Program-made: the position numbers and the translations under genes
Shown: positions 13,786 to 36,268 of the stretch, in pieces
Numbering within the stretch: the stretch's first letter is position 1
Layout of the letters: each line of letters starts with the position of its first letter
Assembly: GCA_017431725.1 (NCBI GenBank)
Contig: JAFRKN010000006.1
Span: 1-38,826, forward strand
Direction: 5' to 3'
Source: Candidatus Saccharimonadota bacterium
Lineage (GTDB): Bacteria; Patescibacteriota; Saccharimonadia; Saccharimonadales; Saccharimonadaceae
Length of the DNA stretch: 38,826 bases
Notes under the pieces: model-generated
Told to the model about the DNA's origin: nothing
The model's database searches: none
Seen by the model: only the letters and a program-made list of their open reading frames with translations

Positions 13786-13932
13786 AATAATAAATTTTTT
13801 TGAGCTTATCATTTACAGGCTGAAAATTTCCAAAAAATAGTGATGGAAAGCCGGTACTGAAATACCGGAAGGCTTCCATCAAATTATTTTTTGGAATTTT
13901 CACCTTAGATAAGCTCAAAAAAGTTTATTATT
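13786..13932. repeat. Structured palindromic element A, copy 1
   Basis: The 61-nt core at 13832-13892 is a hairpin (GATGGAA/TTCCATC outside, CCGGTA/TACCGG inside, CTGAAA loop). An inner arm (13821-13839 with 13885-13902) and an outer arm (13786-13810 with 13908-13932, centred on GAGCTTATC/GATAAGCTC) enclose it. They are separated by an asymmetric internal loop ending in CAGGC on the left. Core matches copies 2 and 3 at 60/61 positions each; arms do not match in sequence but pair. Lies between infB and the DUF5663-like gene. Confidence 0.9.
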
Positions 13933-21297: not shown

Positions 21298-21828
21298 ATG
21301 AAAAAAGTTATCCTCAAATGTAAGCTAAAGAATCGTGATGAATTTGAGCAAAAACTCAGCGATATTGATCTTGATTTCTCTCCGATTTATTGGCAACACG
21401 ACCGAGTTTATGCTCCACGTGGTTACAAACGGGGGATTAACCTCCCACGCCTCATCATGCGTACTGAAATGAAAGCCGTTGATAAACCTGCAAAATATTA
21501 TCTGATTTTGCGCCGTCACATCGAAGATTCCGGTGTTGATGTCACCGAAGAAACTTCAATCAAAGATTACGAAAAAGTAGTGAATATTATTATGCAACTT
21601 GGCTTTAAATCAATTGCTGAGGTCTCTCGTCGTCGCCAAGAACTAAAAATGGGCGAAGGAACTTTTATTTATCTTGATAAGATTGATAATAAACCTGGTT
21701 ATTACGCTAAAATTGAATCCGAACTTTCCGATGCAGACTCCGTCATAGAAGCCAAAGAAGACCTAAAAAAGACCTTCGAAACTCTTGGCGAATCTAACTT
21801 TATCGATAGCACGTATTTTGAATTATAA
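21298..21828 (+). CDS. CYTH-domain (CyaB/ThTPase-like) protein
   Basis: 176 aa with the CYTH tunnel layout: alternating basic and acidic strands such as YYLILRRHIED and SRRRQELKMGEGTFIYLDKI, ending in a YYAKIESEL strand and a C-terminal helix. CYTH enzymes hydrolyse triphosphates (thiamine triphosphate, polyphosphate) or make cAMP. The hallmark N-terminal ExExK is missing: the sequence reads ILKCKLKN, with Leu and Cys in place of the two Glu. Activity may therefore differ or be lost. The last codons lie inside structured element copy 2. Leaderless start predicted. Family assignment moderately sure, function open. Confidence 0.65.
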   Translation: MKKVILKCKLKNRDEFEQKLSDIDLDFSPIYWQHDRVYAPRGYKRGINLPRLIMRTEMKAVDKPAKYYLILRRHIEDSGVDVTEETSIKDYEKVVNIIMQLGFKSIAEVSRRRQELKMGEGTFIYLDKIDNKPGYYAKIESELSDADSVIEAKEDLKKTFETLGESNFIDSTYFEL

Positions 21829-21962
21829 AACTCCTAGCTTGCTATTTGCAGGCTAAAAATCTGAAAAAATAGTGATGGAAAGCCGGTACTGAAATACCGG
21901 AAGGATTCCATCAAATTATTTTTTCAGATTTTTACCAGAGCAAGCTAGGAGTTTTATAATTC
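21820..21962. repeat. Structured palindromic element A, copy 2
   Basis: The 61-nt core 21864-21924 differs from copy 1 at one base, in the lower stem/internal loop. The outer arm is 23 bp perfect (21820-21842 with 21940-21962, beginning GAATTATAAAACTCC). The inner arm pairs TAAAAATCTG with CAGATTTTTA. It covers the CYTH gene's stop codon (21826-21828) and fills the convergent gap to the KwaB-like gene ending at 21972. Here the stem has A-rich left and T-rich right tails on both strands, so it could also terminate both transcripts. Confidence 0.92.
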
Positions 21963-21971
21963 AAATATTTT

Positions 21972-30665: not shown

Positions 30666-31283
30666 GTGGGAAAAAAGTCTCAAACAGAAATTTCAACCTC
30701 TCCTTCGCCACCAGAACTTGTTCGGCGTCGCGAAAACCGCCAGTCAATTTTTAGATCCGGTCGCACCATTGGCGAAAAAAGGGAACGGCTCGAAACTAAA
30801 AATGAACGTATAGCAGCTCGTAAAAAACAAAAACGCGGCAAAGTTTTTCGTATAATCTTTACAATTTTTTGTTTTGCGATTTTAATGTTTATATTAATTA
30901 GTCTTTATCAAGCCTTTTCTAAAAGGGAAGATCCAGTTGTGACAGAAAACCATTCTCTTAGTCCTACTATAGAAATTATTGACGAAGAAGCCTCTTCCAG
31001 CGGTCAGATTACTTCACGTATGAAAACTTTTATTGCGCGAGCTGAAAAAGAATTTCGTACCCTAAATTACCAACCAATCAAAGCCGTCATTCCTGTTGGC
31101 TCGGTTCGTGAAGTTGATCTCTATCTCGAAAACTATAACGGTTTTATTAAAATGACTATTGATCGCAATCCAGCGGTATCCGTCGAAGACGCCAGTCGCA
31201 TGCTTCGTTACCTTAATGAAAAAGGAATAAGTGAATTTACTTATATAGATGTTCGTATCGACGGCAAAGCCTACTGGAAATAG
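30666..31283 (+). CDS. ftsQ: FtsQ/DivIB-like bitopic division protein
   Basis: 205 aa. A long, highly charged cytoplasmic N-terminus (about 60 residues, many Arg/Lys), one membrane helix (about 61-81), then a short extracellular domain. The last part EFTYIDVRIDGKAYWK resembles the C-terminal end of FtsQ/DivIB, where xIDLRxxxxxxK ends the beta domain. The POTRA domain is reduced or absent. Start GTG with AGGAGG 6 nt upstream. It follows murG by 10 nt, the usual FtsQ position after the mur genes. Symbol given as a tentative homologue. Confidence 0.6.
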   Translation: MGKKSQTEISTSPSPPELVRRRENRQSIFRSGRTIGEKRERLETKNERIAARKKQKRGKVFRIIFTIFCFAILMFILISLYQAFSKREDPVVTENHSLSPTIEIIDEEASSSGQITSRMKTFIARAEKEFRTLNYQPIKAVIPVGSVREVDLYLENYNGFIKMTIDRNPAVSVEDASRMLRYLNEKGISEFTYIDVRIDGKAYWK

Positions 31284-31287
31284 GGAA

Positions 31288-31341
31288 TTGTTCGGTTTTT
31301 GTTCTATTACAATTCTCTGTTCTTTTGTTCGGTTTTTGTTC
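31288..31341 (+). repeat. Direct repeat TTGTTCGGTTTTTGTTC x2
   Basis: The 17-mer TTGTTCGGTTTTTGTTC occurs at 31288-31304 and 31325-31341, immediately after the ftsQ-like stop. A near copy of its central part (TTCGGTTTTTGTTCGG) lies near 32365 within the VirD4-like gene. Function not known; the coding copy may be chance. Confidence 0.6.
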
Positions 31342-31478
31342 AGTTTATATCTTAGTATAACAATTTTTATGTGGGATAATATTTGAAAAAACAGGGAAAA
31401 ACACTAAAAAGGGAAACAAAAATGGGGAAATGTCAAATGTGGAAAACTCTGAACAAAAACCAGAGGTTATGAGGGCCA

Positions 31479-31714
31479 AATTACTAATTATCAAATTCCA
31501 AAAACATTAAAAGGTTTGGCCCGTTGCTATTATCACAATACTCCAGTTATACGAGCGTCATCGAGTATTTTATAGATTATTTGCATGTGGCTCTAGAGTG
31601 TAAACGAGCGTTTCATTAGAATCTTAAGACAATCACTAAGACGCGAGTATCTGACGAGTCTTGTGATAATAGCAACTGCCCAAGCCCGTTTTTGGAATTT
31701 GATAATTAGTAATT
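31479..31714. repeat. Long rod-like palindrome B (236 nt)
   Basis: A 27-bp perfect outer stem (31479-31505 with 31688-31714, left arm starting ATTACTAATTATC) is followed inward by an asymmetric loop. Next comes a 16-bp perfect stem, GTTGCTATTATCACAA (31523-31538) with TTGTGATAATAGCAAC (31661-31676). After ACTC/GAGT, an ATAC-GA-GCGT / ACGC-GA-GTAT segment (31549-31558 with 31641-31650) forms a tandem G-A type internal loop. Unlike a simple terminator, it has at least three stacked helices. It lies between the division cluster and the VirD4-like gene. Confidence 0.88.
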
Positions 31715-31967
31715 AAATACACACTAACATTCATATTTTAGGCATAATTCCTGCCCACCCAGAAATATTCCTACCCAAAAGACGATTGATTTACCGGCTT
31801 TTTAACATAACCGTAATGTCTTAAAATCTATATTGTGCGACATTAAACTTATATTCCCAACACAAAGTTGTATCAACCTAAATTCAACAAAAATCGAGAC
31901 CTTGTTTAATTTTTTCAAAAATCCTTATTTCCCTACTTTTAATTCTAGAATTTTTTATACTTTTATT

Positions 31968-34871
31968 TTAATGTTTGATAGCTAAAAATCCATCCGCTGA
32001 ATTATCTTTATCTACAAAGCTGTCAGCCCTTCTAACAGGGGTAGACAGGGAAAGGGGAGTGCTTTTTGGCTTGATTTCAATAGTTGTTTTTTCCTGGTAT
32101 TCCACCTCTGGTTTAACAGGGGAAGAAGCCGTATTTTTTTGATCGGAATTAGCTTTGGGCTTAATAGAAGGTTTTCTACTAAGTCTTTTTTTCCCTTTTT
32201 CAATCTTCTCTTGCTTTTTAGCCTCTTCATTCTGTTCCTTCCCTTTTTCCTCAGCAATTAACTTCGCTAAATCTTTTAAACCCAACCGCTCTTTACCCTC
32301 AGCCACATTTGGACTCAAATTTTGTCTTCGAAAATCCGCCTGAGGCGTGGGCTGATATTTAAAGTTCGGTTTTTGTTCGGTAGAAGTTTTTGTATTTATC
32401 ACTAATTTTGGCTCTTCTTTACGCCCAGAATCTGATAATTCCCTTTTATATTTTTCGGATTGTTCAATCGTTTCCCGTATTTCTTTTTCCACTTCCATTC
32501 TTGGCCGCGCAAACTGCTCTCTTGAATGTGCAATAATCTCTTCAATATTGTCTTTTGGTGAATCGGGAATAGAGAGGGTGGTAGCAGAGAAGGCTGGAAC
32601 TTTTTCACCATTGATAATCATCGAAATCACAAAATGGCGATTGTTGAGCTGAATGATATCAGATTCGTCAAAAGTTGGTTCAAACTGTTTTACTAAAATT
32701 GGAGCATCATCGGCTGAGACTCGGAAAGAAATTGTCGTCCCCACATTGCCAAATACCGCATCGCGGACTTGATCGGTCATTTGAGCGACATATTGGTTTG
32801 CTACGGTTAGATTTAAGCCATACTTCCGTGCTTCAGAAAGAATTATTGCAAAAGATTCCGTTGCAAAATTTTGAAACTCGTCCACATACAGATAAAACGG
32901 TCGCCGATCTGCAATATCGGGAATATCTGACCTAGACATCGCTGCTAATTGTACTTTTGTTACCAAGAATGCACCCAGAATTGCTGCATTGTCTTCTCCT
33001 ATTAAGCCTTTAGAAAGATTCACCACTAAAATTTTTCCTTCATCCATAATTTTTCGAATATCAAAAGAAGATTTTGGCTGTCCAATAATATTTCGGATAA
33101 TTGGGTTAGCCGTGAAAGCACCGACTTTATTTAAAACCGGTGCAATCGACTCATTTACCTGTTTTTCGTTCCATTGTCCAAATTCATGTTTCCAAAACTG
33201 CAAAACTGTTACATCTTTGCAATAATCCAAGGTTTCCTTGCGAAAATCCTTATCAGTTAAAAGCCTGGAAATATCAAGTAATGTAGTTTCTGGCCGGTCA
33301 AGCAAAGCAAGAAGCGTATATCGTAAAATATGTTCCAAACGAGGACCCCAAGAGTCCCCAAACATTCGTTTCAAAACTCCAATTACCTCAGAACAGATAT
33401 TGGGCTTTCTTGAAGGATCGGAAATTTCAAGAGGGTTGAAAGCTACAGGAAAGGCTGTGTCGGCTGGGTTAAAATAAACTACATCCCGAATTCTAGAATC
33501 TGGTATAAAGCGTAAATTATCAATTGCGAAATCACCATGTGGGTCAATAATACAATAACCCTGGTTATAAAAAATATCAGAAAGTGCCAAAAGTTCTAAC
33601 ATCCCACTCTTACCAGCCCCAGTTTGACCGATTATATACACATGCCTTGAACGATCACGTCGCAAAAGCCCAAACTGGTGATTAATTCCTCTAAAATTAG
33701 TCAGGCCAAAAGCTGAAATATTTTCATCAGTTGTAAGGTTACCAGTTAAAATTGGTAATTTAGCTGGGGGCTCTGCCGTTTTAGAACTCGCCCAGACAAT
33801 GTTTGGCGTTTCTACTGAAGTATGAGGTAAATGATAAACCGAAGCTAATTCGGAAATATTTAAAATGAAACCTCGATTAGAAAATTGTCGCATTTTGTAG
33901 GCGTCTAAATCAGCAGCATTAAAGCTGCTGCCAAGCTGTTTAAAACCATTAAGATTGGTTGAATTATATTGTTTAAATGTTCCTACAAGTGCTTGCATAT
34001 TTAATTTTGCATCGGTTTCATTTTGACCAAGATAAGCCAAGCGTACTTTTACCTCATAACCCAACTTTGTGGCTTTTTCTTCAGCCTTTGCTATACGGGT
34101 TTTGTCTCGCTCCGAAAGCTCCACTTTTACTTCAGAAGTAGTTCCACCAGCTGGCGGTCTAAACAAGGCTCCTAACGCCTCAACCAACCAGGTCCAATCT
34201 ATTCCAGTTTCTCCTAAAAAGAGTTTTTTGCCAGATTTTATTTGCTGAATCCATTTGTCGGTAGTATTTTTGTGCCAATCATCTGGTATTGGTCTCGCCA
34301 AAATCTGAATCCAAAGCTCTTCTGAATTATCGGCATTCAATTTTGCTAAAGTTCCAGTAATTCCCGCCAAAGGATCGACTTCAAAATTATCAAAAGTTTT
34401 GATGGGCAAAGCCTCATTCTCGGTTAAAGCTAGTTCCGCCGAATAATTAACTGGATATTTTACCCGATTGTCAACATAATCTTCATTCATTTTGTAAATT
34501 TGTACAGTCGGATACTGTGAATAGATCTGCCCCTCTACAAAGCTTTGTAAAACTTTTGGCACCCAAACGTAAAATCTAATTTGCCCACCAGTTGAAACAA
34601 TCTCAAAAGACAAATGCTCCTGCACGCCTCCAGAATTTTTCAATTCCTGTTTATCCCTTAATATCCCGTGTAGAGAAGCAAACAGTTGTTCCGCTGCTAA
34701 CTCTTTTTTGTCGTTTTCTCGCGGAATTTCCAACATTAAAAGAACCGAATCTACATTCAAAACTTTCAACTTGTTGAGTTTTTTATAATTTTTATAGGTC
34801 AAAAAAGCTAAAATTCCCACTACAGGAATCCAGAAGATTGGCATTAAAATAAAATGTATGACATTTTCCAT
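31968..34871 (-). CDS. VirD4/TraG-like conjugative coupling ATPase (T4SS-type)
   Basis: 967 aa. One or two N-terminal hydrophobic segments (about 7-25), a long N-terminal domain, then an AAA-like motor: Walker A GQTGAGKS (415-422), Walker B YVDEFQNF (662-669), and an arginine- and Gln-rich core typical of TraG/VirD4 with GLNLTVANQYVAQM. The C-terminal 180 residues are Lys/Glu/Pro-rich and look disordered. Such proteins recruit DNA or protein to type IV secretion systems. No VirB genes are nearby, and Patescibacteria often encode isolated T4SS-like ATPases. Leaderless start: TAAAAT (34878-34883 on this strand) 6 nt before ATG. Confidence 0.85.
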   Translation of the reverse strand: MENVIHFILMPIFWIPVVGILAFLTYKNYKKLNKLKVLNVDSVLLMLEIPRENDKKELAAEQLFASLHGILRDKQELKNSGGVQEHLSFEIVSTGGQIRFYVWVPKVLQSFVEGQIYSQYPTVQIYKMNEDYVDNRVKYPVNYSAELALTENEALPIKTFDNFEVDPLAGITGTLAKLNADNSEELWIQILARPIPDDWHKNTTDKWIQQIKSGKKLFLGETGIDWTWLVEALGALFRPPAGGTTSEVKVELSERDKTRIAKAEEKATKLGYEVKVRLAYLGQNETDAKLNMQALVGTFKQYNSTNLNGFKQLGSSFNAADLDAYKMRQFSNRGFILNISELASVYHLPHTSVETPNIVWASSKTAEPPAKLPILTGNLTTDENISAFGLTNFRGINHQFGLLRRDRSRHVYIIGQTGAGKSGMLELLALSDIFYNQGYCIIDPHGDFAIDNLRFIPDSRIRDVVYFNPADTAFPVAFNPLEISDPSRKPNICSEVIGVLKRMFGDSWGPRLEHILRYTLLALLDRPETTLLDISRLLTDKDFRKETLDYCKDVTVLQFWKHEFGQWNEKQVNESIAPVLNKVGAFTANPIIRNIIGQPKSSFDIRKIMDEGKILVVNLSKGLIGEDNAAILGAFLVTKVQLAAMSRSDIPDIADRRPFYLYVDEFQNFATESFAIILSEARKYGLNLTVANQYVAQMTDQVRDAVFGNVGTTISFRVSADDAPILVKQFEPTFDESDIIQLNNRHFVISMIINGEKVPAFSATTLSIPDSPKDNIEEIIAHSREQFARPRMEVEKEIRETIEQSEKYKRELSDSGRKEEPKLVINTKTSTEQKPNFKYQPTPQADFRRQNLSPNVAEGKERLGLKDLAKLIAEEKGKEQNEEAKKQEKIEKGKKRLSRKPSIKPKANSDQKNTASSPVKPEVEYQEKTTIEIKPKSTPLSLSTPVRRADSFVDKDNSADGFLAIKH

Positions 34872-35997: not shown

Positions 35998-36090
35998 CTA
36001 TAATATTATCAACTTTCCAACTATATTGTAGCACATTTTTTACAATTTCAAAAGAAAGTTTTAAAAGCATAACTAATATATAATAAACTT

Positions 36091-36215
36091 TTTCTAAGTT
36101 CATCATCAATAGGCTAAAAATTTGAAAAAATAGTGATGGAAAGCCGGTACTGCAATACCGGAAGGCTTCCATCAAATTATTTTTTCAAGTTTTCACCAAG
36201 ATGAACTTAGAAAAA
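36091..36215. repeat. Structured palindromic element A, copy 3
   Basis: 61-nt core 36125-36185, one base different from copy 1 (loop CTGCAA instead of CTGAAA). Outer arm TTTTTCTAAGTTCATC (36091-36106) pairs perfectly with 36200-36215. The inner arm keeps pairing with TTTG against CAAG, where copies 1 and 2 have other pairs. Orientation is the same as the other two copies though flanking genes are on the minus strand. Lies upstream of the sigma4/HARE promoter. Confidence 0.92.
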
Positions 36216-36268
36216 ATTTAATATTATAGCATCAACAAATTTGATTATCATAAAAATCTTAATTAATT

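Follow-up and report, generated by a model that had tools for sequence, protein, structure and literature searches.

The window analysed here is a stretch of 38,826 nucleotides, contig C16 of a 752-kb draft genome, from a genus that a pattern from the neighbouring block places among Candidatus Saccharibacteria and whose genomes come mostly from the ruminant gut. A gap of 684 nt (31284-31967) lies between two convergent genes, an ORF in the position of ftsQ (+) and a VirD4/TraD-like ORF (-), and contains a rod-like palindrome between conserved blocks:

30666..31283, + strand: upstream gene, named ftsQ by position only, from the conserved order ftsW-murG-X
31390..31438, + strand: conserved flanking block 1, AACAGGGAAAAAC..AAAAAGGGAAACAAAAATGGGGAAATGTCAAAT, with repeated GGGAAA towards the predicted dif
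31479..31714, + strand (the sense orientation): rod element of 236 nt, assigned to the R1 family by fold, arm pairing and covariance-model match
31479..31505, + strand: outer 5' arm of 27 nt that pairs perfectly with the 3' arm, its letters unlike those of most other copies
31515..31680, + strand: conserved core, matched by covariance models R1 and R2, TTTGGCCCGTTG ... CCAGTTATACGAGCGTC ... GACGCGAGTATCTGACGAGT ... CAACTGCC
31688..31714, + strand: outer 3' arm, 27 nt
31780..31803, + strand: conserved short hairpin followed by a T run, AGACGATTGATTTACCGGCTTTTT, terminator-like
31818..31845, + strand: predicted dif (Xer) site, GTCTTAAAATC-TATATT-GTGCGACATTA, inside conserved block 2
31968..34871, - strand: VirD4/TraD-like ATPase gene, the convergent neighbour

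The RNA fold of the + strand of the rod has an energy of -91.7 kcal/mol, compared with a mean of -42.4 for shuffled sequences (z -11.4), and none of 200 shuffles was as stable; the z values were -11.3 for the - strand and -10.6 for the DNA fold. The outer arms (31479-31505 and 31688-31714) are 100% complementary over 27 nt, the inner stem of 16 bp pairs GTTGCTATTATCACAA with TTGTGATAATAGCAAC, and the interior holds an asymmetric loop and a tandem G-A internal loop (ACGAGCG / CGCGAGT). The rod, its two perfect stems, both loops and the length of the gap had all been described in an earlier note made from the letters of the window, and our analysis recovered each of them; its statement that the rod lacks a flanking target duplication also held on re-inspection. 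Searching Rfam with the rod revealed no family above the gathering threshold, and the sole match below it, to a generic miRNA hairpin model, scored 32.7 bits where 144 are required. A hammerhead-like reading of CUGANGA on the 3' strand was dropped because this motif is not conserved among the copies, others reading CUGACGG or CUGCCGG. The promoter/terminator scan gave no support for either at the rod, and the simple terminator scan did not pick up the hairpin at 31780..31803.

Both flanking blocks were conserved in 118 of the 147 genus genomes, within the gene order ftsW-murG-ftsQ (by position)-gap-virD4-sigma-topA; the gene at 30666..31283 matched no Pfam or NCBIfam family. Block 1 may be called KOPS-like, only by analogy. 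The 28-bp site at 31818-31845, 103 nt from the rod, is conserved and has an 11-6-11 layout. It is probably dif, and we call it the predicted dif because a prophage is inserted exactly there in relatives and because gene orientation flips at the locus, a change in strand bias that was seen in three genomes. GC skew showed no sign change at the site, and tyrosine recombinases are present. The prophage, which is inovirus-like and about 6 kb long, was found in two relatives, G056 (L293:4774-10423) and L130, the latter assigned to the G140 genome by identical sequence. It encodes a Zot-like ATPase together with a G2P-like Rep protein and lacks an integrase; a shared core is found at both junctions. 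Filamentous phages such as XacF1 integrate at dif via the host XerC/D (PMC5666396), and in the same manner the block beside the rod appears to act as the attachment site of an integrase-less prophage. This parallel with phage integration (XacF1, CTX phage) concerns the neighbouring dif site only and does not extend to the rod. The intergenic hairpins of the prophage are nearly identical in the two species and differ from the rod.

Some further observations were made around the gap. Upstream of block 1, TTGTTCGGTTTTTGTTC at 31323-31341 is nearly invariant across the genus, and it recurs once more at 32364. In one genome, a gene with a CdiA_C domain (PF18451; L138:5155-5586) lies between ftsQ and block 1, beside a FISUMP gene. 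A segment of 650 bp spanning block 1, rod and dif is 96.8% identical between two species, G056 (C4:10399-11049) and G103 (C14:69398-70047), compared with only about 80-88% for the genes neighbouring it, which suggests that this segment was laterally exchanged recently.

A homology search with a structure model, which the earlier note had proposed, retrieved about 60 homologues of the rod, all within one genus of rumen/gut Saccharibacteria (TM7); that note had treated the rod singly and missed a dispersed family, in our reading a mobile one. The first homologues, from a DNA search, came from three species of the same genus, and the R1 covariance model then placed copies in 27 of the 147 genus genomes, up to five per genome. 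The R2 covariance model was built from 37 copies and searched in 392 genomes of the order from 156 genera; its matches were confined to the one genus, with no copies in the 155 other sampled genera. The elements are about 235-265 bp long, lie outside the main ORFs and occur in several copies per genome. The rod motif was absent from IMG/VR viral contigs in an exact-motif search, and none of the papers searched dealt with Saccharibacteria hairpin repeats. We lean towards regarding the rod as one copy of a previously unnamed, genus-specific mobile hairpin family, here called R1. Short forms, with a core of 68-110 nt in which the stem is kept and the central region is missing, were seen in G333, G048 and G028 C4 (L252, L258, L253, L267) and are probably deletion derivatives.

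The pairing of the rod is kept while its letters change. In a comparison of four copies, 98.6% of the cells were paired and double changes were found in 15 of 16 varying pairs, and the covariation was far above that of shuffled and slid controls. For the core of 37 copies, 96.3% of the cells were paired and double substitutions had occurred in 30 of 35 pairs, compared with 30-46% paired in slid controls; these pairing figures rest on an alignment fitted to the covariance model. In four aligned species, the flanks could be aligned and the rod arms could not, the arms differing in letters yet pairing within each copy. The median arm identity between copies was only 36%, and the outer-arm duplex reached -39.5 kcal/mol with its own partner compared with -13.3 across copies on average. 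The compensatory changes that the earlier note had suggested looking for in relatives are thus present, and where it had named unpaired divergent arms as the contrary outcome, the arms proved divergent but paired. On the sense strand of the core, G.U pairs outnumbered A.C mismatches by 42:14, an excess that the model-fitted alignment may inflate and that points to the strand with the same sense as the upstream gene; the ratio in the outer arms, 45:34, is not significant. Because the compensatory change is strong and the core shows this sense-strand bias, selection of the kind acting on structured RNA is supported for the rod. Among copies with a core identity of 0.84-0.89, the arms were either well conserved or like those of random pairs, suggesting that arms can be replaced.

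These results also bear on the explanations that the earlier note had offered. Its structured-RNA candidate gains from the compensatory change and the G.U excess, whereas the tie to the VirD4-like ATPase is positional only, because most other copies adjoin unrelated genes. Its guess of a DNA-processing role came true in a way it had not foreseen, in that the gap contains the predicted dif.

Away from the window locus, R1 copies typically lie 3-70 nt past the stop codon of a same-strand gene, and they are mostly in the sense orientation relative to it, although the counts are phylogenetically non-independent. The commonest upstream partners are FISUMP (PF09603) surface-protein genes, a large family in the genus genomes, and the partner proteins of this type have a C-lectin-like C-terminus. 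Rods also follow FtsA-like genes and genes that we take, from reading their protein sequences, to be ileS, dnaG, GH57-like and thrS-like; Pfam matches back the FtsA-like and FISUMP names. Apart from the rods, several FISUMP genes lie about 1.5-2 kb upstream of same-strand reverse transcriptase genes, in pairs that look like diversity-generating retroelement cassettes:

G124 C1:101583/103364: FISUMP and reverse transcriptase genes
G124 C6:32125/34106: FISUMP and reverse transcriptase genes
G134 C24, G052 C20 and G023 C9: FISUMP and reverse transcriptase genes

In G028, G135, G052 and G124, paralogues share both the gene and the rod, and their similarity stops at the 3' tip of the rod or no more than about 15 nt from it. 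In addition, two rods at unlinked sites (G116b/c) are 97.5% identical over -36..+34 of the core, which is the rod alone; two others at different loci with different neighbours (G460c/d) are 95.5% identical over -43..+50, again the rod; and the rod common to G134a/b comes without a shared neighbouring gene. Near-identical rods at unlinked sites, with identity ending at the tips, are good evidence from sequence comparison that the rod moves as a unit, in some cases recently. An empty-site comparison at dnaG, with a query from G134 and the search mistakenly centred on G116, found no contiguous site; divergence between the compared species is too great for an empty site to be matched to the base. 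A Y1 (HUH) transposase was detected in 3 of 118 genus genomes and not in the genome of the window, and this enzyme was rejected as the mobiliser of the rod since it is almost absent from the genus. A REP/RAYT or IS200/IS605-derived element was likewise rejected, the Y1 transposase being absent from the window's genome.

The gap beside the predicted dif has collected hairpins of other kinds in other species. The spacer between block 1 and the predicted dif folded with z <= -3 in 45 of 66 genomes and with z <= -5 in 37 of them, and the hairpins in this slot belong to at least six motif families, mutually unlike. In the stretches scanned, comparable hairpins are otherwise uncommon, with counts, the locus itself included each time, of two over 258 kb (G139), three over 105 kb (G056) and five over 115 kb (G103). 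Those centred on GGTACTGAAATACCGG in the dif gaps of other species are of the same family as the other palindromes of the window:

13786-13932: palindrome with GGTACTGAAATACCGG centre
21817-21965: palindrome with GGTACTGAAATACCGG centre
36080-36224: palindrome with GGTACTGAAATACCGG centre

Palindromes of this second family also occur at G000 C12:5171-5272 and C7:4871-4976; they are intergenic, have variable paired arms and twice stand right at a stop codon. The idea that the R1 rod and hairpin family S are permuted forms of a single module (CTGACGG / CCCAGT), to which the eye was drawn by their resemblance, was rejected, the match not exceeding shuffles.

We favour, with moderate confidence, the explanation that R1 is a non-autonomous, MITE-like mobile palindromic family that folds as RNA, on its sense strand, in 3' UTRs. 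Transcription of the upstream gene would yield a sense strand that ends in the rod and folds into a long RNA hairpin, which may protect, process or end the mRNA. The rod would spread by means of a trans-acting enzyme that reads the folded shape and the core, not the arm sequence, while the arms would be held perfect through compensatory change or palindrome correction and sometimes be replaced at a new site. The copy in the window would have come to rest in the convergent gap, with block 1 on one side and the predicted dif on the other, at a spot where hairpins repeatedly collect. A bolder version, which we advance tentatively and think unlikely in full, is that the element is recognised by its folded shape, so that the core travels and its arms of 25-30 bp either accompany it or are made anew at each target, and that unrelated hairpin families converge beside dif as the folded strand serves them or the terminus.

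The rod could instead be a structured-RNA gene or 3'-UTR regulatory element of the host, spread by gene duplication and lateral transfer and not by transposition. Conserved unpaired motifs, the sense-strand bias, the orientation of rods with their upstream genes, their co-duplication with FISUMP genes and the position near dif conserved in many species would all fit such an element. However, rods shared without a neighbouring gene (G134a/b, G116b/c, G460c/d), the patchy presence in 27 of 147 genomes and the unrelated hairpins that occupy the same place in other species do not, and we regard this alternative as rather unlikely. Less probable again is a terminus element. The rod would then be single-strand DNA folded into a substrate linked to Xer recombination at dif, as with the attP hairpin of CTX phage, or a remnant of such a substrate, or else the terminus would need it in order to work. 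In favour are the distance of 103 nt to the predicted dif into which the inovirus-like prophage is inserted and the enrichment of several hairpin families in exactly this gap. Nevertheless, the best dif-like matches in the rods did not exceed shuffled background (-14.2 vs null -11.9), and the rod was rejected as a folded dif-like site; most R1 copies lie far from dif, 21 of 66 genomes lack a clear hairpin in the gap, and the prophage's own hairpins are of a different kind. A special role of the rod at dif is possible, and the sequence tests give it no support. It seems very improbable that the rod is a hairpin which diversity-generating retroelements use behind the variable 3' ends of their FISUMP target genes. 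FISUMP/C-lectin-like C-termini do precede many of the copies, and reverse transcriptases are widespread in the genus (86 of 147 genomes). However, rods also follow ileS, dnaG, FtsA-like, thrS-like and other genes, the FISUMP genes inspected beside a reverse transcriptase (L221, L246) have no R1 rod, three rods occur in G036, where no reverse transcriptase was detected, and no consistent link was seen. A chance palindrome or an artefact, which a draft metagenome assembly might produce, has almost no probability in view of the z of -11.4 and the compensatory changes seen among independent homologues from many genomes.

As a MITE-like, probably mobile family, R1 can be compared with known repeats. 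YPAL / RU-2 of Yersinia are mobile palindromic intergenic repeats of about 168 bp that contain inverted repeats and lack TA at their ends; they insert at or beside dyad symmetries and are expressed together with upstream genes, whose RNA they may stabilise or destabilise (PMC2229807). R1 is likewise a mobile palindromic intergenic repeat, on our reading. However, it is longer (235-265 bp), no sequence relation was seen, its arms are hypervariable yet paired within each copy, and it is confined to one Saccharibacteria genus, with no target duplication found. ERIC/IRU and NEMIS (Correia) are small non-autonomous repeats that end in TA and have terminal inverted repeats whose sequence is fixed; once transcribed, they form long stem-loops and influence the adjoining mRNA through processing by RNase III or RNase E (PMC2229807). 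The arms of R1, in contrast, have no fixed sequence. R1 is thus small, non-coding, dispersed and intergenic, as MITEs are, and its transcript could fold into one long stem-loop (z -11.4, covariation), while its arms are unrelated between most copies; because a conserved terminal repeat is absent, we file it as a variant of the MITE-type repeat.

If this assignment is right, R1 adds to these tiny host-dependent bacteria a repeat family under selection for shape and not for sequence, and the R1/R2 covariance model provides a means of tracking it. The neighbour of the rod is marked as the probable dif of these Saccharibacteria, with an inovirus-like prophage inside it, and one intergenic slot is shown to collect unrelated hairpins. 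Two questions can now be put to the test: how inverted repeats lacking a fixed sequence are mobilised, and by what, and whether a stabilising hairpin closes the mRNAs of the large families of FISUMP surface proteins.
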